Part shown: positions 9,226 through 23,985 of the stretch, in pieces
How positions within the stretch are numbered: position 1 is the first letter of the stretch
Layout: each line of letters opens with the position of its first letter
Assembly (NCBI GenBank): GCA_904419875.1
Contig: CAJFTG010000010.1
Location: 1 to 64,000 of the forward strand
Origin: Candidatus Avimonas caecicola
Lineage (GTDB): Bacteria > Bacillota > Clostridia > Oscillospirales > Acutalibacteraceae
Length of the DNA stretch: 64,000 bases
Reading direction: 5' to 3'
Position numbers and translations under genes: made by a program
The notes under the pieces: generated by a model
What the model was told of the DNA's origin: nothing
What the model saw: the letters and a program-made list of their open reading frames with translations, nothing else
Databases searched by the model: none

Positions 9226-11139
9226 TTACTTTCCTTCCCCGCCGTCGTACCGGCAGCGGCCCGCCTGCTCAAGCAGACGGATAAACAGGCCGCCCTGCAC
9301 GGTGCGGTGCTGGCTGTAGAACCGCTTGGCGGTTTTGGTGCTGTACCAGTCGGCCATCGGCACGCGGTTTTCCGTCTCATGGAAATACCGCCATACCGGC
9401 GCCATAAACCGCGCGAATTCCTCCCGGCTTTCCGCCAGCGTCCCTGTCCAGGCCAGCCAGTCGGTTTTGGAGGTGCTGCCACGGCAGTCCAGCGGCAGGC
9501 CGTAGGGATTCATATACGGCCAGTAAGAGGCGAACTCCCGTCCCAGCTCCTCGGTGGTGAACAGGCCGGTGCCGAACAGCTTATCCCAGACAATGTTGTA
9601 TTTCAGAGAGTAGGTGCCCGGCTGGTCGAAGGCCAGACGGGTTCCGCCGTTCCCGTCCGCAGCCCGCTCCATCCAGGAGCGCGCCATCCGCCTGGCGGAC
9701 TGCCAATAAGGCGCGGCTTCGCCGCTGCACCCGCTGAGTTCAAGCAGGATCGCCATCGAAGCGATCCCCATGATCGCCTTGACCGCGAGGTTGCAGTTGT
9801 GGGGCAGATGCTTGAAAAAGTCGTCGGTGCAGATCTGGTCCGCCGGGTCCTCGCCGTAACGGATCAGGTATTCCGCCCACTGCTCAAACAGATCCCGGTT
9901 CTCCACGAACAGGGAGGCATCCTTGCCGGCCACTGCGGCCGCGGCCGCCATAACCAGCATATTGCCGCACTCCTCAATCGGCATCTGATGGTCCGGGTCG
10001 CTGCCGTTGGAATACACCTGCCCGTTGAGATGGGGATAGCAGCCCACGTCGTGCGGGGCAAACCCGTACAGCCAGTCGCCGCTCCGGGAGAAGCGGAGGA
10101 CCGGGCGCAGCATGGCGTTGACCAGGGCGGGGTTATAATACAGGTACATCGGCATGGACGGATAGCTGACATCCACGGTCGCGGCACAGCCGTTGGACAG
10201 GCACTCTTTGGAAATATACAGCAGCCCGTCTTCCTCGTCCCGGACCAGTTTGTGGCCGGCCATCACCTGCCGGTAAGCCAGGGAAAGCATCTCGGCATAC
10301 TGCTCGCCTCCCGCGGCGGCAGCCTCCCGGCACAGATCCCGGGAAAAGCGCTCCTCCCGCTCCCGCAGGGCCGGATAATCGCCGTAGGCTTCCGCGATCG
10401 CCTGTTCGATCGTCTTACCGTCCCGCTTCCAATACGCTTTCAGCCGCTTGCCGAAATAAACGATGCTCTCCACGTCGTCATAAGCAAAGGCGAACAGCGC
10501 TCCGCCGTCCTCCAGCGGCGCCCTAGCCGTGAGATAGCTTTCGCCCAGCACCTTGGCCGACCCGGTCTCGCCGCCGCGGACGCACAGGTAAAAATACCCC
10601 CAGTCGATGCGGATGTCGTCCCCACCGCCGACCAGGACGGGCTGGGTGGTCCCTCCCATCCGGGAAAAGGCGATCCCCCCTTCCAGCCGCCCGGCGCTGA
10701 TCTCCACCGGCTCCTGCCGGGCGGTGTCCAGGCAGAGCTCCTCCGAGGCACGAAGCTCCGCGGTCAGCCGCCGGGCCCTGCCGTCCGTGACCTCCGCCGA
10801 CAATTCCAGATAGGAGACCGGCCGGCTGAGCAGATCCAGGTCGTCGGCAAAAACAGGGGTGAAAAAGCGGGCTGTCAGCCGCACGCCGTCCGCCTCAAAC
10901 CCGTAGACCGTGGCCATCGCGGTGATCTCCAGGGAGATCTGCCGCATCGGGATGCCCCCGGCCTCCTCCCCGCCCATAAAGCGGTAGACCGTGTCGTCAA
11001 TTGTCAAAAAGCCGTTGATGGTGTTGGTGTGCCCGGTCCAGTGGCAGGTGGCGGCGGCGTTCAGCCGGTCCGCGCACGACCAGACGCTGAAATAGGGGTC
11101 GACTGTAATCAAGGGGACGGCCGGTGCTCTGAGTTTCAT
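9226..11139 (-). CDS. DUF4965/DUF1793 glutaminase-like family protein
   Basis: N-term 'APAVPLITVDPYFSVWSCADRLNAAATCHWTGH', C-term 'DWLAWTGTLAESREEFARFMAPVWRYFHETENRVPMADWYSTKT', characteristic of this family. Confidence 0.8.
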   Translation of the reverse strand: MKLRAPAVPLITVDPYFSVWSCADRLNAAATCHWTGHTNTINGFLTIDDTVYRFMGGEEAGGIPMRQISLEITAMATVYGFEADGVRLTARFFTPVFADDLDLLSRPVSYLELSAEVTDGRARRLTAELRASEELCLDTARQEPVEISAGRLEGGIAFSRMGGTTQPVLVGGGDDIRIDWGYFYLCVRGGETGSAKVLGESYLTARAPLEDGGALFAFAYDDVESIVYFGKRLKAYWKRDGKTIEQAIAEAYGDYPALREREERFSRDLCREAAAAGGEQYAEMLSLAYRQVMAGHKLVRDEEDGLLYISKECLSNGCAATVDVSYPSMPMYLYYNPALVNAMLRPVLRFSRSGDWLYGFAPHDVGCYPHLNGQVYSNGSDPDHQMPIEECGNMLVMAAAAAVAGKDASLFVENRDLFEQWAEYLIRYGEDPADQICTDDFFKHLPHNCNLAVKAIMGIASMAILLELSGCSGEAAPYWQSARRMARSWMERAADGNGGTRLAFDQPGTYSLKYNIVWDKLFGTGLFTTEELGREFASYWPYMNPYGLPLDCRGSTSKTDWLAWTGTLAESREEFARFMAPVWRYFHETENRVPMADWYSTKTAKRFYSQHRTVQGGLFIRLLEQAGRCRYDGGEGK

Positions 11140-11321: not shown

Positions 11322-12194
11322 TTGAAGGAGGATCTGCGCTTTTTTTATGCGGAGTCTCCGTCCGCCCCGTTCTTTGTGGAACTGACAGGGATTTCCTACT
11401 GTGACGGCAGCTATTATCAGGAGCGGGAGGAATCGGACGTCACGGTTGTGGAGTATATCGTGCGGGGCCGGGGAACGGTGATGTGCAACGGGGAAAAGGT
11501 GAATCCGGCGGAGGGGGACGTCTATATCCTCCACCAGGGGAGCCGCCACGCATACTTTTCCGATGCGGACGACCCCTGGATTAAAATTTTCTGCAACCTC
11601 AAGGGCAACCTGGCGGAGGATCTCCTGCGCGCCTACGGCCTTCAGGATACGGTGCTGGTACGCGGCTTCTGGAATGAGCAGATCTTCCGGGACTTTTACG
11701 CCCTGAGCTGCCTCAAGGAACCGCAGGAAAAGGTGTTCCGGCGATGTGCGCTGAAATTTCACGAAATCGTCTCGGCGCTGTATACCCTGCAAAGCGAGGC
11801 GGACCGCCTTCCGGACGAGGCGCAGAAGCTGCGGGATTATCTGGACGACCGGGTGTTCGGCCGTGTCAGCATCGACGAGCTGGCGGCCTCGATTTACCGC
11901 TCGCCCGATTATACCATCAAGCTGTTCCGCAGGGCCTATGGGCAGACGCCGTACGCCTATCTGCTCCGTCAGAAAATGCGGGCGGCGGAAAACCTTTTGC
12001 GCACCACGCAGCTCCCCTGCTGGGAGATCGCCCGCAAGCTGCAGTTTGAGGACCCCCATTACTTTTCCAACCTTTTCAAGCGCCAGCACGGCATCTCCCC
12101 CCGGCAGTACCGCAGCGTGGTCCGGCCGCAGGGACGGCGGAGCCTGCTTGAGGAATCCTCCTCCCGCCTCCCTCCCATGCAGGAGGGCGGGTAG
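11322..12194 (+). CDS. AraC family transcriptional regulator
   Basis: cupin-like N-terminus plus two HTHs 'SIDELAASIYRSPDYTIKLFRRAYGQTPYAYLLRQKM...WEIARKLQFEDPHYFSNLFKRQHGISPRQYR'; TTG start likely. Confidence 0.9.
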   Translation: MKEDLRFFYAESPSAPFFVELTGISYCDGSYYQEREESDVTVVEYIVRGRGTVMCNGEKVNPAEGDVYILHQGSRHAYFSDADDPWIKIFCNLKGNLAEDLLRAYGLQDTVLVRGFWNEQIFRDFYALSCLKEPQEKVFRRCALKFHEIVSALYTLQSEADRLPDEAQKLRDYLDDRVFGRVSIDELAASIYRSPDYTIKLFRRAYGQTPYAYLLRQKMRAAENLLRTTQLPCWEIARKLQFEDPHYFSNLFKRQHGISPRQYRSVVRPQGRRSLLEESSSRLPPMQEGG

Positions 12195-12251
12195 CGCCGG
12201 CGGGCGGCAGCAAGCGGCAGAACATCGTTTACAGAGAAAGGAGCAGCGGCA

Positions 12252-14693
12252 ATGCGCGAAACAATCCCCCTGAACCGGGGCTGGCTTTTCCGACGGGAAA
12301 CCGACGCCCCCTCGGCGGGCGAACGGGTCGACCTGCCCCACGCCAACGTCGTCCTGCCTTACAATTACCTGCGGGAGGCCGACTATCAATTTGTCTCCTT
12401 CTATGAAAAGACGCTGGCCGCCCCGGAGCAGTGGGCGGGGCGGCGGGTTTTCCTGTACTTTGAAGGGGCGATGGCTTATACGGAGGTGTTCTGCAACGGT
12501 CGGCCGGCCGGCTCCCACAAGGGCGGGTACACCCCCTTCTGCGCCGAGCTGACCGACCTGCTGATTTTCGGGCGGGAGAACCGCCTGGAGGTCCGGCTGG
12601 ATTCAACCGAACGGCCCGACTTTCCCCCCTGCGGAAACGTGGTGGACTACCTGACCTACGGCGGCCTGTACCGCGAGGTGACCCTGTTGGTGACGGAACC
12701 CGATTTTGTGCGCGAGCTGCGGGTTTCTCCCCGCCGGACGGCGGAGGGGGAAATCGTCGAGGTCGCAGCGATTTTCGGCGCCCCTCTGGCGCGGGACGCG
12801 GAGCTGCGGGTGGAAATCAGCGGCCATTTCGCGCGCCGGGAGGCCGTCCTGCACGCGAAAGCGGGCGACGACCGGCTGCGCGCGGTTTTCTCCGGGGCGG
12901 AGGAACTCCGCCACTGGTCGCCGCAGTCCCCCTCCCTCTACCGGGCGCGGGCGGAGCTGTGGCGGGAAGGCGTTTTAACCGACCGGGCGGAGACACGCTT
13001 CGGGATGCGCCTGTGCGAATTCCGGCCGGACGGCTTTTACCTCAACGGGGAAAAGCTCAAGCTGATCGGGCTGAACCGGCACCAGAGCTACCCTTACGTC
13101 GGCGGGGCGATGCCGGAGCGGGTGCAGCGCCGGGACGCGGACATCCTCAAAGGGCTGGGGATCAACCTGGTGCGTACCAGCCATTACCCTCAGAGCCGCC
13201 ATTTCCTTGACCGCTGCGACGAGCTCGGCCTGATGGTGATGGAGGAAATCCCCGGCTGGCAGCATATCGGGGACGAGGCGTGGCAGGAGGCGGCCGTGGG
13301 GCATGTCGAAGAAATGATCCGCCGGGACTACAACCACCCGTGCATTATCCTCTGGGGGGTGCGGATCAACGAATCCGCCGACTGCTCCGCTTTCTACCGG
13401 CGGACCAACCGGAGGGCGCACGAGCTGGACGGCACCCGGCAGACCGGCGGCGTGCGGTGTTCCGTAAAGGGGGAGCTGCTGGAGGATGTGTACACCTTCA
13501 ACGAATTCATCCACAACGGCGGGGAAACCGTGTTCCGCTCCCGGGAAGAGATCACGGGGCGGGAGGAACCGGTCCCCCTCCTGATTACCGAAAGCAACGG
13601 GCACATGTTTCCCACCAAGCGGTTCGATCACGAAAACCGGCTGGTGGAGCACGCGCTGCGGCACCTGCGGGTGATGGACGAGGCGCTCGGCCGGGAGGAC
13701 CTGGCGGGGGAGATCAGCTGGTGCGCTTTTGACTACAACACCCACGGCTGCTTCGGGTCCGGAGACAAAATCTGTTACCACGGGGTGTCCGACATGTTCC
13801 GCATCCCCAAATACGCGGGCCTGGCCTGCATGTCCCAGCGCCCGCCGGAGCAGGGCGCCGTGCTGGAGCCGCTCTCGCTGATCTCACGCGGGGAACGGGA
13901 CGGCGGCGGGATTCTCCCCGTCTGGGTGGCCACCAACTGCGAGTTCGTGCGGGTTTACCGCAACGGGGAACTGGTGGGGGACTTTGCGCCCCACCGCGCG
14001 CCGTTCCCCCATCTGCCCCACCCTCCGGTCCTTATCAGCCATCTGATGCCGCAGAATATCCGGCTTCCCCTTCCGCCCGCCCTGCGGGAGGAGTTTACCC
14101 GCTTTATCGACGAACGGGCCGAACAGGGGGTGCTGCCCGACCTGCTGCCGGAGGACTATCCGTATCTGGAGGACCTGTCCCTGCGCGCCGGGCTGGAACG
14201 CGGCGCCCTGACCGCCCTCCTGTTCGAGACCGCCGGCGGCTGGGGGCAGGCGGAAAACACCCTCCGCCTGGAGGGGTACGTCGGCGGGAAGGCCGTCCTC
14301 GTCCGGGAGGTGGGGGAAGCCAAATCCTTCGCCCGGCTGGACGTGCAGGCGGACGACACGGTGCTGCGCGCCGACGGGAGCACCTACGACGCCACCCGCC
14401 TTGTGGTGCGCGCGCTGGATACGTTGGGGAACCTCTGCCCCTTCTACAACGCCGGGGTGTCCCTGGAAACCGACGGAACCGTGGAGGCGATCGGCCCCGG
14501 CTCCGTGGCCCTGGTCGGCGGCTGCATCGCCTTCTGGGTGCGCACCCGCGGCAAAACAGGGACCGCCCGCGTCCGGGTTCGGAGCGGGGACGAGACGGCG
14601 GAAATCCTTCTGGAGGTCCGCGAAGGGGCCGCAGCCGCCCCGGCGGCCGCGGCAGGCGGCGGAACGGAACCGGCCGCCTGCTTTGCGCTGTAG
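12252..14693 (+). CDS. Glycoside hydrolase family 2 protein (beta-galactosidase/beta-glucuronidase-like)
   Basis: 'LIGLNRHQSYPYVGGAMPERVQRRDADILKGLGINLVRTSHYPQSRHFLDRCDELGLMVMEEIPGWQ', 'RRDYNHPCIILWGVRINES'. Confidence 0.9.
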   Translation: MRETIPLNRGWLFRRETDAPSAGERVDLPHANVVLPYNYLREADYQFVSFYEKTLAAPEQWAGRRVFLYFEGAMAYTEVFCNGRPAGSHKGGYTPFCAELTDLLIFGRENRLEVRLDSTERPDFPPCGNVVDYLTYGGLYREVTLLVTEPDFVRELRVSPRRTAEGEIVEVAAIFGAPLARDAELRVEISGHFARREAVLHAKAGDDRLRAVFSGAEELRHWSPQSPSLYRARAELWREGVLTDRAETRFGMRLCEFRPDGFYLNGEKLKLIGLNRHQSYPYVGGAMPERVQRRDADILKGLGINLVRTSHYPQSRHFLDRCDELGLMVMEEIPGWQHIGDEAWQEAAVGHVEEMIRRDYNHPCIILWGVRINESADCSAFYRRTNRRAHELDGTRQTGGVRCSVKGELLEDVYTFNEFIHNGGETVFRSREEITGREEPVPLLITESNGHMFPTKRFDHENRLVEHALRHLRVMDEALGREDLAGEISWCAFDYNTHGCFGSGDKICYHGVSDMFRIPKYAGLACMSQRPPEQGAVLEPLSLISRGERDGGGILPVWVATNCEFVRVYRNGELVGDFAPHRAPFPHLPHPPVLISHLMPQNIRLPLPPALREEFTRFIDERAEQGVLPDLLPEDYPYLEDLSLRAGLERGALTALLFETAGGWGQAENTLRLEGYVGGKAVLVREVGEAKSFARLDVQADDTVLRADGSTYDATRLVVRALDTLGNLCPFYNAGVSLETDGTVEAIGPGSVALVGGCIAFWVRTRGKTGTARVRVRSGDETAEILLEVREGAAAAPAAAAGGGTEPAACFAL

Positions 14694-14798
14694 AACGGCG
14701 CGGGACCGCCGAAAGGGCGGCGCCCGCGGAGGTTCGGCCTGCGCCGAAAATGCAAATACAGTTGGAACAGTGGGAACACTTGGAAAGGATGATGTTAC

Positions 14799-15437
14799 TT
14801 GGAACAGCAAATTCTCCGCATCATGCAAAAGGAAATCGACCTGGGGCAGTGCCCCGTCCTGGCGGAGGGCCCCCGCTCCGATGAGGAGCTCGCGCGCGAC
14901 TGGGAATACAAAAACGGCGTATGGACGGTCCGGGACGGGTGGGTCTGCGGGAAGCATACCGGGAATTCCGGCGGTATTCTTTATTCGAAGCGCCATTTCC
15001 CCGGGGATGTTCTGCTGGAATTTGAGGGGCGCACCGTCCCCCCCTGCGACAACGACCTGAATTTTACCTGGCACGCCGCCGGCTGGGACGAGCAGGCGGA
15101 CGACGCCGGCGTGAGCTATATTGCCGGCCTGGCCGGCTGGTGGGACAGCAAGACGGGGATGGAACGCTACCCCGAATGCCTCCCCCGCGCCGTCACCCCC
15201 CTGTTCCCCTTTGAAGCGGGACGGCTGTACTTCATCCAGGCCGGGAGCATCGGCGGGCACTGCTTCCTTTTTGTTGACGGCCGGCTGGTCATCGAAATGC
15301 TGGACCCCGAGCCCATCACCCAGTACGGCAAGGTTGGGCTGGGCACCTATGCCAGCCAGATCGCCGTGCGGAATTTCCGCGTCCGCCGGATTGTGAGCCG
15401 GCCGCGCGAGCAAAGCTATACGCCGGCGTTCGACTGA
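14799..15437 (+). CDS. Jelly-roll (DUF1961/DUF1080-like) carbohydrate-associated protein
   Basis: 'WTVRDGWVCGKHTGNSGGILYSKRHFPGDVLLEFEGRTVPPCDNDLNFTWH...KVGLGTYASQIAVRNFRVRRI'; TTG start after AAGG. Confidence 0.6.
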   Translation: MEQQILRIMQKEIDLGQCPVLAEGPRSDEELARDWEYKNGVWTVRDGWVCGKHTGNSGGILYSKRHFPGDVLLEFEGRTVPPCDNDLNFTWHAAGWDEQADDAGVSYIAGLAGWWDSKTGMERYPECLPRAVTPLFPFEAGRLYFIQAGSIGGHCFLFVDGRLVIEMLDPEPITQYGKVGLGTYASQIAVRNFRVRRIVSRPREQSYTPAFD

Positions 15438-15451
15438 GCCTGCGTATAAAC

Positions 15452-15490
15452 GAAATCGGAGTCCCCGGCAAAGCCGGAGGCTCCGATTTC
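15452..15490. terminator. Bidirectional intrinsic terminator between convergent operons
   Basis: GAAATCGGAG...CCGGC-aaa-GCCGG...CTCCGATTTC. Confidence 0.75.
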
Positions 15491-15524: not shown

Positions 15525-16202
15525 TCATGGCTCCCATGCGCCCGCTTCCCGTCCGGCGTCCCGGACGATGTTGACCGCCGTAATATTTCCAAAATCAAGC
15601 AGCTCCCGGCATTCATACGGCACCGGCTGCCGAAAGAGCGGGCCGTCCAGCACCACGGTATGGTATTCCCCGTTTTCGCCGCAAACGTCAATCCCCCGTT
15701 CCGCCATTTCCCGCAGGACAGCCTCGTCCAGCGCGCGGCCCAGCAGGGACGGCGGAAGGTCGCGGTTGCGCACGCATTTGACCACGCACCGGTAGCCGAG
15801 CGCTATCGCCTCCCGCGTGTTCTCCAGCCGGTCCCGGTGCCAGAGGGGGAACAGCGGCTTCAGGCCCGCCGCCTCACAGCGGGCACGGCACCAGGCCGCG
15901 TTGTCCTCCGCGTCGATATCCCCGAAGGCACAAGCCTCCGCCCCGCCGGCGGCAGCCCGCCGCAGCCCCTCCTCCATAGCCAGATGGTAGTCCTCCCCGG
16001 CCGATTCGCAAAGCAGGAGCGGCAGGCCGAGGGACTCCGCAATGGCGGCGAGCAGGTCCGGGTCGATCCCATGGAACCAGGAACGTCCCAGCGCCCGGTT
16101 CATCATTACCAGCAGGCCGGTCACTTCGTGGCCGGCCTGCTTCAGCTTGTGCAGGGTCAGGACGCTGTCCTTCCCCGCGCTGAAGGAAAGAATACACTTC
16201 AT
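15525..16202 (-). CDS. DUF71/COG2102 (Dph6-like) ATP pyrophosphatase, candidate B12-salvage subgroup
   Basis: PP-loop 'LSFSAGKDSVLTLHKL' and C-terminal 'GIDVCGENGEYHTVVLDGPLF', diagnostic for Dph6/DUF71; lies in a cobalamin riboswitch operon. Confidence 0.9.
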   Translation of the reverse strand: MKCILSFSAGKDSVLTLHKLKQAGHEVTGLLVMMNRALGRSWFHGIDPDLLAAIAESLGLPLLLCESAGEDYHLAMEEGLRRAAAGGAEACAFGDIDAEDNAAWCRARCEAAGLKPLFPLWHRDRLENTREAIALGYRCVVKCVRNRDLPPSLLGRALDEAVLREMAERGIDVCGENGEYHTVVLDGPLFRQPVPYECRELLDFGNITAVNIVRDAGREAGAWEP

Positions 16203-16244
16203 CCGCCCGTTCCTCCTTGGCCGTCCGTTCCCGGCCGGCGGGGC

Positions 16245-17072
16245 CTACCGTGGGGAATTATCCCACGTGCCGGTCCGGCCGAGGTCGTATCCCAGGTCGC
16301 AGGTATACAGCCATTCGATCCGGTCGCCGTCCTTGAGCGGATAGCGGCTGCAGCCGTAATTGGGAAACCACCCGTTCACCCTGTACATCCATCCGCTTCC
16401 CTCGCCGCAGTCCTTTTCATAAAGGTTGTTGATCCCTTCGATATAATTGCTGTTATAGATCGGCGTGCGCTCAAACTCCATATGGATCCGGTTCTTCTTG
16501 GTCTCCCGCAGGAGCACGTCGAAAACCGACTCCCCCTCGTAAAAGGTGACGGTTCGCTCGGCATAAATCACGCCGTCCTCCGGCAGCACCCCCAGCTTGT
16601 CCTTGTTGAACAGATCCATATTGTCCAGGATGGTGTCGCAGCGGATGGACAGGGTGCAGGTGAGGCGGGTTTCCTCATCCACCACCATATCCTCGGGCTC
16701 CACCGGCGCGGGCGTCGTGGTCGGCGCCGCGGAGGAGGTGGAAGAGGTGGAGGAGGTGGGAGAGGTGGGAGAGGTGGGAGAAGAAGCCGGGGCTTTCCCC
16801 TCCCCGACCGCCGTGGTTGAATCCGCGGAACCCGTTTCCTGCGTCCCGCCGCTCTCCGCTGTGCCGGAGCCGGCAGAACCCGCCCCGGGAGAGGCGGCGC
16901 TGTCGACCGGTCCGGAGGGCGCCGGCTCCGCCGAATCGGTGACAGACAGCGGGTCGTCCGCCGCCACCTCGTCCGGAAATTCAATCGTGCAGCCGGTCAG
17001 GGCGGTAAAAAGCAGCGCCAGCAGGCACAGGACCAGAAGGACGCTCTTCGTCCACGTCTGCCTACGTTTCAT
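16245..17072 (-). CDS. DUF4430 (transcobalamin-like C-terminal domain) lipoprotein
   Basis: lipobox 'LFTALTGC'; 'GEGSGWMYRVNGWFPNYGCSRYPLKDGDRIEWLYTCDLG' typical DUF4430. Confidence 0.9.
   Translation of the reverse strand: MKRRQTWTKSVLLVLCLLALLFTALTGCTIEFPDEVAADDPLSVTDSAEPAPSGPVDSAASPGAGSAGSGTAESGGTQETGSADSTTAVGEGKAPASSPTSPTSPTSSTSSTSSAAPTTTPAPVEPEDMVVDEETRLTCTLSIRCDTILDNMDLFNKDKLGVLPEDGVIYAERTVTFYEGESVFDVLLRETKKNRIHMEFERTPIYNSNYIEGINNLYEKDCGEGSGWMYRVNGWFPNYGCSRYPLKDGDRIEWLYTCDLGYDLGRTGTWDNSPR
16732..16785. repeat. 9-bp in-frame tandem repeat within the DUF4430 gene
   Basis: gaggaggtg|gaagaggtg|gaggaggtg|ggagaggtg|ggagaggtg|ggagaagaa; encodes part of an S/T/P-rich linker. Confidence 0.85.
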
Positions 17073-17122
17073 CGGTCATCCCCGCTTTGTTGGTTTCATG
17101 GGTTTCCATAGGTTTCACGGCG

Positions 17123-20032
17123 TTATCTCCGGCCCCTTTTCGCCGCCAGCAGCGCGGCCAGCGCCCCCAGCGCCAGCAGGATCATGCCGCCCGCCGCAGT
17201 GGCCTCCCCGGTGGAGGGGACGCCTTCTCCCGACGGCGAATCCGGGGCCGCCTCCGTCGTCAGGGTGACGGCGATGAAGTATTCGCCGCCCTCCTCCAGC
17301 GTGAGGAGGGCCTTGCCGCCGGCCACGGTCACGGTCTGCACCTTTTCCGCCCGGCCGCTGTCCGCCACGTAGCGGTACAGAACCCGCTGGCCGTCCGGGC
17401 CGCCGACGGACAGCTCCACCGCCGCCCGGCCGGGGAAGGCGCCGCTCTGGTCGAAGGAGAAGGCGAAGGGGTCTTCCGCCAGCTTCTCAATCGCCGCGCT
17501 GTTGGCGGTATCCCCCAGCGTCATGCCGTACCGGAAATCCGCGGGCCGCACGATCTCCAGCCCGTTGAAGGTGATCGAGTAGCCTTCGCCGGAAACGGTG
17601 TAATCCCGGTCGGTATCCCGGATGTTGTCAAACACCAGCGCCGGAATCACGCCTTTCTCCAGAGAGGCGATGATCGCCTGCGCGTCGATCACGTCGTCAT
17701 AATACTGAACGCACGCCTTCTCGGAGTCCCGCAGGGCCGCATATTTCGCCGCGATGGCCGCGACGGTTTCCCTGTCCGCCAGGGTGATGTTCTGCGGATC
17801 CAGCTCGTTCCAGATCAGCCGGTCGATCTCATCCACCGCCGCGCGGTAGCCGAGGATGGCCTGGTACACCGCCTCCAGCTTTTCCCGGCCCGCCGCCTGC
17901 GCCTGCACGTTGGCGTGCAGGGCGGCGAACTCCTCGTACACCGCCTTCACGGCCTCCTCATCCTCCAGCAGCGTCGCTTGAGCGGCCGAGGGCAGAGCGG
18001 CGATCTTTTCCTCCACCGAGGGAAGCAGGACCAGGTCGTCCAGCTCTTGGAGCTTGTCCTTCGCGGCCAGCAGCCGGTCGGCGTTGGTCACCCGCTCCCG
18101 ATCCGCTTCGCTGAGAGCCTGAAACGCTGCCCACAGCTCATTGACCGCCGCCTTATCCTGCGCCGTCACCTCCGCCGCGTCCGGCAGAAGGGCGATGTTT
18201 TCGATCAGGCCGTCGATGGAACCCTTGAGGTCGTACAATGCCTCCACGGCCGCGGCCAGCGTCTCCCGGCCCGCCACCAGCCGCTTGTCTTCCTCCAGCA
18301 GGCTGCCGTAAAGGAAGCTGGCGGTCTCGACCGCCGCTTCGTCCGCCAGGGTGATATCGGCGGGAATTTTGGCGATTTCCGCCTCGGCCTGCGCCACGAG
18401 GGAGGCGGTCAAAGCGTCCATCCGGTCGGTCAGGGCGGTCAGGGCGGCGGCGTTGGACACCTTGGTCTGCTCGGCCGGCGCCAGCCCCTCATACCGCTTT
18501 TCCGCGGCAAGGACCGCCTTTTTGTCGGTATATTCCGCCTCCTGCGCACCCGGAAGAAGGCTGATCGCATTCTCCACGTCCTGCGCGGTGAATTCGGCGT
18601 TTACATTGCGGAAAACAGTGAGCGCGTAGGAAGCGGCCCCCGTCTCGTAGTCCGCCCCGTTGTACGTGCCGAAATAGGTGTTGCTGCCGCCGATCATGTA
18701 CAGGTTACCGTACTGGTCGGCCTTAAAGGAGGAGGAATTGTAGCCGGTCGCCCGGTATCTCTTCCCGCCGATCTCCACGTCGGTGCCGATCTTCATGACT
18801 TCCTTGTATTCCGTCTGCCCGGGCTGGTCTTCGAACACATAACCCACGCCCGACACATAATCGATCGCATACACATACACTGTGCGGCTGTTTTCCGCAC
18901 TGGCGTAGGCCGTGGTAATCAGCGGCACGCTCTGGGAGCTGAGGCCCTCGACATAATACGCGGCCTCCAGCGTTTCGGCGTCCAGCACGGCGAAGGAGCT
19001 GGAAAGGGCGTGCATCCCGCCGGAGGGGACGTAAATCCGCCCGTTGTAGGCGCTGACGCCCCCGGTCACCCCGCCGATGACGCCCTCCGCCGTCCGGCGG
19101 ACGGTCTGCCGGTTGAAGGTGCCGTCCCGGTTAAGCTCGATGGTGAACAGCTGCGCGGTATTCTTGGTGGCCACGATCAGGCGGTTGGTGGTCGCGTCGT
19201 AGATCAGGTTCGAGCGGACCAGGTCCCCCAGGTCGTAGGCGTCGTAAACGATGTCCTCGGTCAGATGGTGGGAATACAGCACGCCGGAATCCCCCGCGAA
19301 ATAAATCCGGCTGCCGACCACCACGCCGCCGGCCCAGTAATAGCCCCCGGTTTCGGATTTCCAGACGTAATCCTTCACCTCGTCGGTCTTCGACGGGTCC
19401 TCGTCCTCGGTGGAAAGGCAGACGTACGCCCCCTCGGTGGCCCCGGTGCCGCCGCTGCCGCCGGAGGTATAGCCGGTGTAGATATACCCGTCGTTGTAGG
19501 TGATGGTGCAGAGCATCTGGTTTTCCGCCGGCGTCAGCCACAGGGATTCCAGGGTTTCGGCGTCAAACGCCTGGATGCGGTCGCTCAAAAGCACGAAAAT
19601 CTTCCCGTCCCCGTAGCAGATGCGGGAGAAATAGCCGGTGCGGCCGTACAGCTTCGTTTCCTTGAGCCGGTTCCCCTCCAGGTCGTAAACCGCCAGCGTG
19701 TCAAATACGGGGCGGCGCGAGCTGCCCGCGCTGGCGACGACCAGATACATCCGCTCCCCCACGATAATGGGGTCCTGCGAGACCAGGTTTTCTTCCTGCC
19801 CGTACAGGATCATCTCCATCTCATCCAGGCTGGCGGGCAGCTTGCTGTCCACCACCGCGGCGTTGCCGCTGTCCCTGGCGAAAGAGGACCAGTACGCCTC
19901 CGCCGGCGCCGTCTCCTCCTTTGCCGAAACCGTGCCGGCGCCAAGCATGGCGGCCAGCATGGCCAGCGTCAGGCCGGCGGCGAGCAGCCGCCGGCGAATT
20001 CCTGTTCTGTTTCCTTTCTCCATCCCGTTCAT
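17123..20032 (-). CDS. Large secreted/cell-surface protein: PQQ-like beta-propeller N-terminal half, helical repeats, C-terminal sorting-signal-like tail
   Basis: signal peptide 'LLAAGLTLAMLAAMLGAGTVSA'; propeller-like 'GERMYLVVASAGSSRRPVFDTLAVYDLEGNRL'; helical repeats 'LPDAAEVTAQDKAAVNELWAAFQALSEADRERV'; tail 'VPSTGEATAAGGMILLALGALAALLAAKRGRR'; start MNGMEKG with GGAGG RBS. Confidence 0.85.
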   Translation of the reverse strand: MNGMEKGNRTGIRRRLLAAGLTLAMLAAMLGAGTVSAKEETAPAEAYWSSFARDSGNAAVVDSKLPASLDEMEMILYGQEENLVSQDPIIVGERMYLVVASAGSSRRPVFDTLAVYDLEGNRLKETKLYGRTGYFSRICYGDGKIFVLLSDRIQAFDAETLESLWLTPAENQMLCTITYNDGYIYTGYTSGGSGGTGATEGAYVCLSTEDEDPSKTDEVKDYVWKSETGGYYWAGGVVVGSRIYFAGDSGVLYSHHLTEDIVYDAYDLGDLVRSNLIYDATTNRLIVATKNTAQLFTIELNRDGTFNRQTVRRTAEGVIGGVTGGVSAYNGRIYVPSGGMHALSSSFAVLDAETLEAAYYVEGLSSQSVPLITTAYASAENSRTVYVYAIDYVSGVGYVFEDQPGQTEYKEVMKIGTDVEIGGKRYRATGYNSSSFKADQYGNLYMIGGSNTYFGTYNGADYETGAASYALTVFRNVNAEFTAQDVENAISLLPGAQEAEYTDKKAVLAAEKRYEGLAPAEQTKVSNAAALTALTDRMDALTASLVAQAEAEIAKIPADITLADEAAVETASFLYGSLLEEDKRLVAGRETLAAAVEALYDLKGSIDGLIENIALLPDAAEVTAQDKAAVNELWAAFQALSEADRERVTNADRLLAAKDKLQELDDLVLLPSVEEKIAALPSAAQATLLEDEEAVKAVYEEFAALHANVQAQAAGREKLEAVYQAILGYRAAVDEIDRLIWNELDPQNITLADRETVAAIAAKYAALRDSEKACVQYYDDVIDAQAIIASLEKGVIPALVFDNIRDTDRDYTVSGEGYSITFNGLEIVRPADFRYGMTLGDTANSAAIEKLAEDPFAFSFDQSGAFPGRAAVELSVGGPDGQRVLYRYVADSGRAEKVQTVTVAGGKALLTLEEGGEYFIAVTLTTEAAPDSPSGEGVPSTGEATAAGGMILLALGALAALLAAKRGRR

Positions 20033-20066
20033 CGTCCCTTTCCTCCGATTTTCCCCGGAAGGAACA

Positions 20067-20094
20067 GAAAAGGAGCCGAAAAGCTTCGGCTCCT
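20067..20094 (-). terminator. Rho-independent terminator, likely the riboswitch expression platform
   Basis: on the minus strand AGGAGCCGAA-gctt-TTCGGCTCCT-TTTTCTGTT between aptamer and the 20032 start codon. Confidence 0.8.
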
Positions 20095-20188
20095 CCGTCG
20101 ACCAAGCGTCTGGGCGGCATGGAATATGGGTAATCAGCCCGCCCGCGCATTGTATCCTCTGTTTCCGCCGAAAAAGATTGATAAACAT

Positions 20189-20385
20189 GCAAGGCAGGTC
20201 TCCTGGCTCGAAATCCTCCTACCGGCGCGGCCCTTCCCGGAGGCGGCAAATCCGTCTCCAGTGGCACCACACGGGAAACCCCGTGTCCGCGCTTTCGTCC
20301 TTCTCACAGTAGCGGGCGGCTGCCGCGGTTTTTCACCGCGTTCCCTTTTCATCCGCCGCGCGGAGCGCGGCGGCAACCATTGCAT
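20189..20385 (-). promoter_or_regulatory. Cobalamin riboswitch aptamer
   Basis: minus strand reads GGGAACGCGGTGAAAAACCGCGGCAGCCGCCCGCTACTGTGAGAAGG...GTGGTGCCACTGGAGACGG...GGGAAGG...GAGCCAGGAGACCTGCC (B12-box consensus elements). Confidence 0.96.
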
Positions 20386-20526
20386 CTGCGCTGTATGAAA
20401 TTGTAAAAAGCCGTATCCATTGTATCCGCAAAAGCCGGAAAAGTCAATGCCTGCCGCCGGTTCACCGGAAAAATCCCGTCGAAGATTGTGGAAATCCCGC
20501 CCAGCGGCCCAAGCGCGCCGGGACTC

Positions 20527-21405
20527 CTACGGCTGGATCAGGCCGTACTTGACCTTGATCCGCTCCAGCTTCTCGATCATCGGCCGGGAGAGCACCAGCA
20601 GGAAGAACACCGTCGCCGCCGCATGGAGAAGGTCGAACGGCAGGGCGGACAGGTATTTGGCGGCGACCATCGGCCAGGTGAGGGCCGCCCCGGTGCCGAG
20701 CAGGGTGCTCAGATTGATGATCCCGCCGTACAGCAGGAACACCGACAGCCCGCCGTAAATGCACAGGGGGACCGGCCTTTTGGGCAGCAGCCCCTTCCGG
20801 AACAGAATGCCGGCCAGGAAGCCGACGACCCCGAAGCAGAACATCTGCCAGGGGGTATGGATCCCCTGCCCGAAAAAAAAGTTGGAAACAAAGCCGGTTA
20901 CCGCCCCGACCAGGAAGCCGGACTCCGCCCCGAAGCAGACCCCGGCGATGATCACGATGGCGCACACCGGCTTGAACTGGGGCAGCATGAAAAAGGCGGC
21001 CCGGCCCGCCACCGCCAGGGCCGAAAGGGTGGCGATCACGACCAGCTCCCGCGCCTGGGGCTTCCGCTTTTCAAACGTCATGAAAAACGGGATCATGGCG
21101 CAGACAATGATCAGGAGCGAAACCGCGTAGTGCAGCCGCCAGACCACCGTCGTGCCGAACAGGGAAAACTCCCATTTCATCGTCTGCAGCCGGCTGCCGA
21201 GCAGCAGCAGCGCCGCCGGAATGAGGACGACGATGAAAACCAGCGCGACCCAGGTCCGCCGGCTCAGGCGGCGGCTCGGCTTTTCCCCGCCATTTCCGCC
21301 GTTTCCGCCTTCCCCGCCGTTTCCGCCCGCCGCGGGCCGGGTGGAGGCCGGACGCGCCGGCGCCGCCGATTCCGCCGGCGCGCCGTTCAGCGATTGCCGT
21401 TGCAC
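20527..21405 (-). CDS. ECF transporter S component (candidate cobalamin/corrinoid specificity)
   Basis: 'IATLSALAVAGRAAFFMLPQFKPVCAIVIIAGVCFGAESGFLVGAVTGFVSNFFFGQG'; GTG start overlapping the upstream ATPase gene; Gly/Asn/Glu repeat N-terminus. Confidence 0.85.
   Translation of the reverse strand: MQRQSLNGAPAESAAPARPASTRPAAGGNGGEGGNGGNGGEKPSRRLSRRTWVALVFIVVLIPAALLLLGSRLQTMKWEFSLFGTTVVWRLHYAVSLLIIVCAMIPFFMTFEKRKPQARELVVIATLSALAVAGRAAFFMLPQFKPVCAIVIIAGVCFGAESGFLVGAVTGFVSNFFFGQGIHTPWQMFCFGVVGFLAGILFRKGLLPKRPVPLCIYGGLSVFLLYGGIINLSTLLGTGAALTWPMVAAKYLSALPFDLLHAAATVFFLLVLSRPMIEKLERIKVKYGLIQP
21283..21327. repeat. 9-bp in-frame tandem repeat (5 units) encoding GGN/GGE
   Basis: TTCCCCGCC|ATTTCCGCC|GTTTCCGCC|TTCCCCGCC|GTTTCCGCC. 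Confidence 0.88.
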
Positions 21406-23063
21406 AGGGCGATCACCTCCTCGTTGGTCACCGCGTCGGGGAAGAAGCGGCGGGCCATCCGGTTGGCGGCCGTGGTGTAAAAGCTGTTCCCCGCAAAAAA
21501 GGCCCGGGCAGGCCCGGCGGTTACCACGCTGCCGTTGAAAAACATCGCGCAGGTGTCGGCGTACCGGGCGCAGAACTCGAGATCGTGGGACACCATGACG
21601 ATGGTCACGCCATCGGCCTGAAGCCGCTTCAGGATACCGGCCAGCGTGCGCTTGAAATAGCCGTCAATCCCCTTGGTCGGCTCGTCCAGCAGGAGAATCC
21701 GCGGTTCGAGCAGCAGCACCTTGGCCAGCGCGGCCCGCTGCTGCTCCCCGCCGCTGAGGTCGTACGGATGCATGGGGAGCAGTTCCTGAATCTCGGTCAG
21801 CGCCGCCATACCGCGCACCTTCGCCCGCTTTTCCTCCGCCGTCATCTTGCGGTCGGAAAACATCTCCATCAGATCCAGCTCCACCGTCTTTTTCACAAAC
21901 AAAGCCTGCGGGTTCTGGGGAAGCACCCCCAGGTTCCGGCGGAACAGCTCCGCGTCGGCGTATTTTCCCAGGTCCTTCCCGTTCAGCTTCACCCGGCCGC
22001 GGTAGGGACGGCTCAGGCGGCTCATCAGGTTGAGGGCGGTGGTCTTGCCGGTGCCGTTTCCTCCGACAATGGCCATCCACTCGCCCGCGCGGACCGTCAG
22101 GTTCAGGCCGCGGATTACGTCGGGCGCGTTCTTCTCGTACCTGAACCATACGTCGGCCATCTCAACGGCCGGCACGCGGTCCTCCCTCCTCCTCTCCGCT
22201 TGGGCCGGAGGCGCAGACCGGACCGGGGCCTGTCCCGCAAACAGCGTATCCAGCCATTTCCGCCCGTCCCGGACGGTGAGCGGGCAGGGGAGGGAATTGT
22301 CCACCCCCGCGTAAATCTGGATAGGCGCAGGCATGGCGAAAAACAGGCCGTTCCCCTGCTCCCTGAGAAGCCGCCCCACCTCCGCCGGCCTGTCACAGCA
22401 GAGCAGCCTTCCCTTTTCCAGCACCGCCGCCCGGTCGGCCGCGGGGAAAATTTCGTCCAGCCGGTGTTCCGAAACCAGAATGGTGGTGCCCAGCTCCCGG
22501 TTGATCTTTTTCACCGTTTCGAGAAACTCGGAGGCGGCAATCGGGTCGAGCTGGGAGGTCGGCTCGTCGAGAATCAGTACGCCGGGCTGCATTGCCATGA
22601 CCGAAGCGAGGTTAAGCAGCTGCTTCTGCCCGCCGGACAGCTCGGTGACAGGCCGCATAAACCAGTCCTGAATGCCGAAAAAGCTCGCCATTTCCGCCAC
22701 CCGCCGCCGGATGGTTTCGCTGTCGAGCCCCAGGCTTTCCAGCCCGAAGGCCAGTTCGTGCCACACCTTGTCGGTGACGATCTGGTTGTCCGGATTCTGG
22801 AGCACATACCCGATCTCGGATGCCTGGGTGCGCTGGTCGGCCTCCTCCAGCGGGCGGCCGTTGTACAGGATGATCCCCTCCCGTGTCCCATGGGGGGTGA
22901 GGACGGTTTTCAGATGCCGCAGAAGGGTGCTTTTCCCGCAGCCGGAACGGCCGCATATCGCGACGAACTCCCCCTCCTCGACCGTCAGGGTCAGACGGTC
23001 GAGCGCCTTCCGGTCCTGCCCCGGATAGGAAAAGGTCAGGTTTTCGATTGCAAACGAGCCCAT
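21387..23063 (-). CDS. ECF transporter fused double ATPase (A1-A2)
   Basis: two Walker A (GRSGCGKST, GGNGTGKTT) and two signature/Walker B sets (LSGGQKQL...LILDEPTSQLD; LSGGEQQRAALAK...LLLDEPTKGID). Confidence 0.95.
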   Translation of the reverse strand: MGSFAIENLTFSYPGQDRKALDRLTLTVEEGEFVAICGRSGCGKSTLLRHLKTVLTPHGTREGIILYNGRPLEEADQRTQASEIGYVLQNPDNQIVTDKVWHELAFGLESLGLDSETIRRRVAEMASFFGIQDWFMRPVTELSGGQKQLLNLASVMAMQPGVLILDEPTSQLDPIAASEFLETVKKINRELGTTILVSEHRLDEIFPAADRAAVLEKGRLLCCDRPAEVGRLLREQGNGLFFAMPAPIQIYAGVDNSLPCPLTVRDGRKWLDTLFAGQAPVRSAPPAQAERRREDRVPAVEMADVWFRYEKNAPDVIRGLNLTVRAGEWMAIVGGNGTGKTTALNLMSRLSRPYRGRVKLNGKDLGKYADAELFRRNLGVLPQNPQALFVKKTVELDLMEMFSDRKMTAEEKRAKVRGMAALTEIQELLPMHPYDLSGGEQQRAALAKVLLLEPRILLLDEPTKGIDGYFKRTLAGILKRLQADGVTIVMVSHDLEFCARYADTCAMFFNGSVVTAGPARAFFAGNSFYTTAANRMARRFFPDAVTNEEVIALCNGNR

Positions 23064-23923
23064 TTGGCATCCTCCCACAGGTTGAAAAGCAGCGGCAGCA
23101 GGCAGAGCCCCGCGTATCCGCCATAGACCACAAGGCTGAAGGGGGTGACCGGCCTGGCGGCGAGGACGGGAAAATATACGATATTGTTCTCCCCGGCCGC
23201 CGCCCCCGCCAGCACCAGCGCGATCAGCGCGATCAGCGCCGTCATCCCCAGCGCGTCCCGCCGGTCGAAACGGAAATTGGAAAAGCTGGTCCTCCCCTTC
23301 AGCCCGTATCCCCGGGACTTCATGGAATCCGCGGTCTCGATCGCGTTTTCCAGCGCCCAGGTGGTCAGGATGGAGAGGATCCGCATCCCGTTCTTCGCCT
23401 TCTGAATCACATTCCCGTTGCTGACGTCCCGCCCGATGCATTTCTGGGCGTTCGAGATCACCCGCGTCTGTGCCTTGAGCCGGGGAACCAGCCGCAGCAC
23501 CATCGACAGCACCAGGGACAGGGCGGGGATCACCCGCCCGAACAGATCCATGAATTTGTCCGAGGTCATCACCGCGTTGTAGCAGGAAAACCAGATCATG
23601 ACCGAAACAAACATCGTGGCGGCGGCAAAGCCGTACACAATCGATTCGGCGGTGATGGGGTTGTCGTTGACGTAAACGAGGATGGTGGCGCCCTCGTGGT
23701 TAAAAACCGGGTTCATCACGGCGAACAGCAGCAGGGTGGGGAGCATGACCAGCAGGTTGAACCGCACCGCCCGCCGCCCGTTGAGCCGAATGGAATACGC
23801 CGTGCCGCACACCAGGGAAATCCCCAGGAACACGGGGTGGAGGAAAAACATGCTGAACAGGATGACCGCCAGGAAATACAGAAAATTCACCGCCGGATGA
23901 AACGACGAAAAGGTATCCTTCAA
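23036..23923 (-). CDS. ECF transporter T component (EcfT)
   Basis: polytopic protein with 'LENAIETADSMKSRGYGLKGRTSF' coupling-helix region; probable TTG start with upstream GGAGGGGGAG. Confidence 0.88.
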   Translation of the reverse strand: MKDTFSSFHPAVNFLYFLAVILFSMFFLHPVFLGISLVCGTAYSIRLNGRRAVRFNLLVMLPTLLLFAVMNPVFNHEGATILVYVNDNPITAESIVYGFAAATMFVSVMIWFSCYNAVMTSDKFMDLFGRVIPALSLVLSMVLRLVPRLKAQTRVISNAQKCIGRDVSNGNVIQKAKNGMRILSILTTWALENAIETADSMKSRGYGLKGRTSFSNFRFDRRDALGMTALIALIALVLAGAAAGENNIVYFPVLAARPVTPFSLVVYGGYAGLCLLPLLFNLWEDAKWARLQSKT

Positions 23924-23985
23924 CGCAGCTCCCCCTCCCGTGCAGGGCATTCCGCCGCCGGCCCGGCCGGTGCAGCCCGCCTTTA

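Follow-up and report, generated by a model that had tools for sequence, protein, structure and literature searches.

The window, a stretch of 64,000 nucleotides from a contig of Candidatus Avimonas caecicola, carries on its minus strand three genes that encode, in order, a 969-aa exported protein, a lipoprotein with a DUF4430 domain and a DUF71 protein (Table 1). The intergenic gaps are 50 and 42 bases, and clear Shine-Dalgarno sequences precede the propeller gene and the DUF71 gene. This confirms the tightly spaced operon (a propeller/helical protein with a sorting signal, a DUF4430 lipoprotein and a PP-loop DUF71 protein) that an initial annotation had described. The annotation was right about the three genes and the aptamer but missed another part of the same island: a complete ECF importer (S component, fused ATPases and T component; 20527-23950) on the same strand, directly upstream of the operon. 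The first gene starts at 20032, with GGAGG ahead of the start and a signal peptide encoded from it; an ORF start at 20188 was rejected because it falls inside the aptamer. A large plus-strand ORF (17087-20398) was discarded as a shadow of the GC-rich coding strand, as relatives exist for the minus-strand proteins. The hairpin 3′ of the DUF71 gene is the probable end of the operon. Convergent with it, on the plus strand at 11322-15437, lies a set of ordinary sugar genes: an AraC regulator, a GH2 glycosidase and a weak match to 3-keto-disaccharide hydrolase.

Table 1. Features of the island in the window, and short CbiP homologues at related loci
Feature	Position	Strand	Basis
Hairpin then GTTTATA, 3′ of DUF71 gene	15452..15490	-	read from sequence
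DUF71-B12 PP-loop ATP pyrophosphatase-family enzyme (Dph6-like)	15525..16202	-	PF01902, GENGEYH, tree
Lipoprotein with C-terminal DUF4430 (transcobalamin C-terminal-like) domain	16245..17072	-	PF14478, lipobox LTGC, Foldseek
Exported 969-aa protein: signal peptide, predicted beta-propeller, helical repeats, VPSTGE sorting signal	17123..20032	-	relatives, AF2, Foldseek
Intrinsic terminator, riboswitch expression platform	20069..20096	-	12-pair stem, then TTTTCTGTT
Cobalamin riboswitch aptamer	20176..20397	-	RF00174, full-length, 100.7 bits
Sigma-70-type promoter TTGACT-17-TACAAT	20419..20447	-	scan match, 10/12 positions
ECF S component, CbrT-like, upstream of riboswitch	20527..21405	-	PF12822; phmmer 4e-12 to 6fnp_A
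Fused double ECF ATPase (EcfA-EcfA), 558 aa from MGSFAIENL	21387..23063	-	TIGR04520 + TIGR04521, two stretches
ECF T component (CbiQ family)	23036..23950	-	PF02361; same order in L041, L042, L043
GATase_3-less CbiP homologues, 256-306 aa	L042:11048-11920, L103:1769-2605, L105:7171-8004, L106:7159-8004, L134:7227-7997, L146:7052-7972, L157:7108-7980

The minus-strand B12 aptamer of the initial annotation was recovered with the Rfam covariance model RF00174 at 20397-20176; the match scores 100.7 bits (cut-off 31.5; E 5e-24) and covers the model end to end (positions 1-189 of 189). It is the only cobalamin riboswitch that a genome-wide RF00174 search found in the 3.2 Mb genome; a pattern match to a B12 box at 10808 on the plus strand had no Rfam support and was discarded. 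Together with a promoter and a strong terminator, the aptamer precedes the three genes, which supports a B12 riboswitch heading the operon, and the element is laid out as a transcriptional OFF switch, its ligand response being predicted from sequence. The same promoter-aptamer-terminator layout lies ahead of the same genes at two loci of the same genus (L041, L042) and at one from another genus of the family (L043). At all three the aptamer is preceded by an equivalent promoter (TTGACTTTT...TANNNT); the terminator has the same position in L041 and also in L043, there with a different sequence, and in L042 the hairpin was read by eye, the scan having listed none. Since the aptamer has its own promoter 3′ of the S-component gene, the layout suggests that the switch acts downstream only: it would control the three genes that follow it and not the importer.

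The importer itself points to B12. When the S component was compared with PDB sequences by phmmer, 6fnp_A (4.2e-12) was the sole ECF S component matched, the rest lying above 0.1; 6fnp is CbrT, the S component of a vitamin B12 transporter. The window protein can be called CbrT-like, and B12 transport is predicted for it. ECF-CbrT has been shown to transport both cobalamin and cobinamide (PMC5997447).

Exported proteins and their distribution

The 969-aa protein has no Pfam family over cut-off and gives only chance matches to the PDB by sequence. Its C-terminus reads VPSTGE, a hydrophobic stretch and RGRR, and its N-terminal part is predicted to be all-beta in a low-confidence AF2 model (pLDDT 56, pTM 0.62). 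The leading Foldseek matches of this model are BamB, PQQ dehydrogenases and other propellers, with an 8-bladed likeness; BtuG is absent from its top 50 matches, at the same low confidence (pLDDT 56). Relatives in L041 and L042 are 70-74% identical, and in L103, from a distant, uncultured clostridium, 512 of 954 aligned residues are identical. The L103 homologue (L103:2697-7064) is 1456 aa long and ends in PDTGE; its approximately 490 additional N-terminal residues resemble a second propeller with helical repeats.

The lipoprotein carries PF14478 at 70.3 bits (cut-off 23.8). It is the genome's sole DUF4430 protein, and its gene sits in the operon with the sole cobalamin riboswitch. Searched with Foldseek against 350,542 chains, the DUF4430 model (pLDDT 64) has, at a modest E of 0.009, rat transcobalamin at ranks 1 and 2 and another transcobalamin entry, 2v3n, at rank 5; rank 3 is 3u7z, a small R. 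gnavus protein, which the sequence profile also touches. The claim of a relationship to transcobalamin, which the initial annotation had made, rests on Foldseek because the sequence profile reaches transcobalamin-1 in the PDB at E 0.29 only, which is not significant; the predicted kinship is thus at the level of the fold only. Export signals, co-regulation and fold together suggest that the two exported proteins capture corrinoid. Extracellular capture, also put forward in the initial annotation, is their likely role, and the neighbouring CbrT-like importer strengthens the case. No paper tying DUF4430 to bacterial B12 uptake was found in the open-access library searched.

The whole island is retained in two other genomes of the genus (G010 and G004). 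Another member of the family, G234, lacks the propeller protein and has the ECF genes, the aptamer, DUF4430 and DUF71. L103, whose DUF71 protein is 64% identical, keeps the S component, the propeller protein, DUF4430 and DUF71. The genes shared with the window stand in the same order in all four. The Rfam riboswitch search gave no match in L103 or in L105 (Methanocorpusculum), despite the presence of the genes. In L131 a DUF4430 protein leads a CbrT-like ECF T-A-S set, and this set faces DUF71 on the opposite strand; the L112 locus has a DUF4430 protein and an S-like protein whose genes converge on DUF71. In the window's lineage, therefore, what stays constant next to a CbrT-like importer is the pair of DUF4430 and DUF71. 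The lipoprotein that adjoins DUF71 in L107 looked DUF4430-like at first and is actually PepSY. The island is unevenly distributed across the genus, with DUF71 in 3 of 12 genomes, some of which are incomplete.

DUF71 subgroup and corrinoid gene content

The DUF71 protein matches PF01902 at 133 bits and scores 100 bits against the Dph6 model TIGR03679, below its cut-off of 197.3. Its motif CGENGEYHT carries GENGEYH, the signature of the DUF71-B12 subgroup, in which ENGEF/YH stands in place of EGGE/DXE (PMC3541065). In a tree of 103 sequences, including two archaeal Dph6, the window protein falls within a 75-row clade (support 99/96). All 34 rows with B12-gene neighbours belong to this clade, and a separate 26-row group contains no such row; a very long branch (3.1) leads to the archaeal Dph6 pair. 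All 75 clade members have H181 where Dph6 has Glu; C109 is found in 70 and C174 in 72 of them, both positions being Ala in the two archaeal sequences. C174 is also present in 23 of the 26 members of the group without B12 neighbours. As His occupies the Dph6 Glu position in that group too, it marks bacterial DUF71 generally, and the B12 assignment is carried by the tree and the neighbourhood, which here consists of the riboswitch and the CbrT-like ECF importer. Membership of the B12 subgroup is therefore established as far as sequence allows, signature and tree both placing the protein in that predicted subgroup. A Dph6 (diphthamide) function was rejected on the TIGR03679 cut-off, the motif and the tree: the protein shares with archaeal/eukaryotic Dph6 (PF0828, 3RK1) the PP-loop S-GKDS fold (phmmer 1e-16) and differs from it in a TIGR03679 score below the cut-off, in His for the catalytic Glu and in the branch length of 3.1.

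DUF71 genes were also seen in other settings. At L052:7139-15104 a divergent DUF71 gene is flanked by a radical-SAM-like gene on one side and, on the other, by a YcaO gene with an ABC exporter. The locus has the look of a RiPP cluster, in which DUF71 may take part in modifying the peptide. At L109:7041-8669, L059:4300-8720 and L060:8688-13110, DUF71 is near genes for BadF/BcrA-type activases (called by Pfam in L109 and by eye in L059 and L060); the DUF71 ORF of L059 and L060 is 613-637 aa long, an apparent fusion.

A survey published by de Crecy-Lagard et al. in 2012 proposed that DUF71-B12 replaces CbiZ or offers another route of pseudo-B12 salvage, ahead of CbiB (PMC3541065). No report of an experimental test of this prediction for the bacterial proteins was found. 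CbiB, needed in that proposal for cobyric acid salvage, is part of the proposed role and lies outside the sequence definition of the subgroup; in the window genome, a 96% complete draft, neither it nor CobS, a GATase_3-type CbiA/CbiP or CbiZ was found. The genome has no CbiP of any form, and a CbiP-like match on its contig C59 is BioD. These absences come from a draft, yet they are repeated in independent genomes: CbiB, CobS, CbiP and CbiZ were not found in G234 (99% complete), CbiB and CobS are both missing from G292, and CbiB is absent from 7 of the 18 genomes that were tested among those with a clade DUF71, including the single-contig genome G121. CbiZ occurs in just 1 of 21 DUF71 genomes. 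That one, G105, encodes it together with a member of the DUF71-B12 clade (L193, G105:C15:53607-54230), which departs from the strict anticorrelation that the 2012 survey described for bacteria.

The corrinoid proteins of the window genome are one MetH-like protein, which combines homocysteine, pterin and B12 domains, and one nearest MtgC, both of them methyl-transfer proteins. The organism, a gut-type member of the Clostridia, is apparently a cobamide auxotroph, unable to make or rebuild B12. Because CbiB, CobS, CbiA/CbiP and CbiZ were not found, known enzymes could not reassemble a corrinoid that had been cut to cobyric acid or cobinamide; the cell would use an imported cobamide unaltered, and a degrading step would lead nowhere unless the product were restored by unknown enzymes. 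The DUF71 enzyme would for the same reason act outside the CbiZ-CbiB route of 2012. Remodelling in the established sense, as the initial annotation had it, is not borne out by this gene set and is unlikely; the enzyme probably processes or repairs B12.

Candidate reactions and alternatives

A clue to the reaction comes from relatives. At many loci in other genomes DUF71 adjoins CbiP, the enzyme that amidates corrin side chains, and in seven cases (L042, L103, two Methanocorpusculum genomes, L134, L146 and L157) CbiP has kept its C-terminal tail without the glutaminase domain. The short CbiP gene is close to a DUF71-B12 gene in all seven, directly adjacent in five and across the operon in L042 and L103; in Methanocorpusculum the CbiP and DUF71 genes overlap by four bases. 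The short forms make up two tree groups that mirror two DUF71 groups, and a single origin is possible; the search for them covered mainly DUF71 loci. No paper on a glutaminase-less CbiP was found in the open-access library searched. Amide ligases without a glutaminase would draw on free ammonia, which is plentiful in the gut. Because relatives pair DUF71 with a glutaminase-less CbiP, DUF71-B12 could be an ATP- and ammonia-dependent ligase acting on corrinoid carboxylates. ATP-dependent amidation of imported corrinoids, as a repair, is the favoured reading and the better half of what the initial annotation had suggested; it is a possible one. In its specific form, an ammonia-dependent amide ligase that repairs deamidated corrinoids, alone in the window genome or with a glutaminase-less cobyric acid synthase elsewhere, it is best regarded as conceivable and rather doubtful. 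Two points speak against it: the catalytic Glu of Dph6 is His in DUF71-B12, so the reaction may differ, and the clue is taken from relatives while the window genome has no CbiP at all. A corrinoid-repair step of this kind has, to our knowledge, not been described.

The operon as a whole very probably serves corrinoid acquisition. In the mechanism envisaged, high intracellular cobamide would make the aptamer favour the terminator, and low cobamide would allow the three genes to be made. At the surface, the transcobalamin-like lipoprotein and the propeller protein anchored in the wall would gather corrinoid and pass it to the CbrT-like importer, standing in for BtuF. In the cytosol, DUF71-B12 would activate a corrinoid carboxylate with ATP and amidate it with free ammonia, restoring corrinoids that lack a side-chain amide for use by the MetH-like and MtgC-like proteins. 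This full scheme, a B12-repressed scavenging operon of a cobamide auxotroph with DUF71 amidation included, is tentative and falls somewhat short of an even chance, mostly on account of the chemistry. Confidence is much greater in capture than in amidation.

The scavenging operon would be otherwise the same if DUF71-B12 did the job of CbiZ, opening the nucleotide loop in cobamides that the cell does not want, for example pseudo-B12, and so starting their remodelling. The 2012 survey lends itself to this idea, as 75 of 102 DUF71-B12 genes lay beside B12 transporters and anticorrelated with CbiZ (PMC3541065), and the rarity of CbiZ among the DUF71 genomes compared here fits as well, as do Clostridium loci that link DUF71 with cobU, cobS, cbiB, cobD and cbiP. 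Remodelling requires CbiB and CobS at later steps, however, and the window genome, G234 and G292 lack both; the clade genomes without CbiB, the co-occurrence of CbiZ and DUF71 in G105 and the oddity of an ATP-consuming PP-loop fold in a hydrolase also make a CbiZ-like role unlikely. LarE and comparable PP-loop enzymes use a cysteine to thiolate carboxylates. With that precedent, DUF71-B12 could instead act on a carboxylate outside the corrinoid side chains, for example on a small molecule or partner protein that is needed for corrinoid handling and would be thiolated or amidated, with the near-invariant Cys109 and Cys174 involved. The conservation of the two cysteines in the clade, against Ala in both archaeal Dph6, and the DUF71 gene within the YcaO cluster of L052 are in keeping with such a substrate. 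But C174 is nearly as common in the group without B12 neighbours and so is not specific to B12, and the tight linkage to CbiP favours a corrinoid; the probability of this alternative is low.

A different objection concerns the surface. DUF4430 is found in many proteins, and propellers with helical repeats and a sorting signal are common among surface proteins. The propeller could thus be a generic adhesin and DUF4430 a structural module, both unrelated to corrinoid binding and co-regulated by chance, and the propeller is indeed missing from G234. Such a coincidence would have to place the genome's only DUF4430 gene and its only cobalamin riboswitch in one operon, tie DUF4430 to CbrT-like ECF genes in several lineages and give transcobalamin as the top structural match, and it seems quite improbable. 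Capture of corrinoid by the exported proteins is the reading preferred here. Were the amide-ligase reading also true, a repair step would be coupled by a riboswitch to Gram-positive surface capture with a transcobalamin-like lipoprotein. An auxotroph with DUF71 and no detectable CbiB, CobS, CbiP or CbiZ is a simple natural case: as none of the four was detected, the enzyme would serve direct use of the imported corrinoid. Fewer candidates are then left, and the question becomes open to experiment.

Relation to known B12 uptake systems

Gut communities are shaped by competition for B12, and the operon can be seen as a Gram-positive counterpart of the Bacteroides surface binders. Like BtuG and BtuH (PMC6143338, PMC8941943), the window proteins are surface-exposed, include one predicted beta-propeller and are encoded at a B12 uptake locus of a gut bacterium; they differ in their Gram-positive wall anchoring, in having no TonB transporter and in a propeller model nearest to BamB/PQQ 8-bladed folds, and binding is predicted for them. 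In the Foldseek search the DUF4430 model is matched best by the transcobalamin and intrinsic factor C-terminal domain; the bacterial version is carried by itself in a lipoprotein, with no alpha-barrel N-terminal domain. A bacterial relative of the transcobalamin tail domain could reveal that domain's origin.

The importer resembles ECF-CbrT of Lactobacillus delbrueckii (PMC5997447), the only ECF relative of its S component in the PDB, with T and A encoded alongside; in the window the ATPases are fused, the ECF genes come before the riboswitch and exported proteins are added. The DUF71 enzyme agrees with the DUF71-B12 subgroup (PMC3541065) in the ENGEYH that replaces the Dph6 motif, in its linkage to B12 uptake and in its clade. 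Its linkage is to a CbrT-type ECF importer and DUF4430 and not to BtuFCD, and in a genome without detectable CbiB, CobS and CbiZ the proposed CbiZ-like role could not be completed. The module is a variant of known B12 uptake systems, one that would place the DUF71-B12 enzyme in a sharply limiting context.
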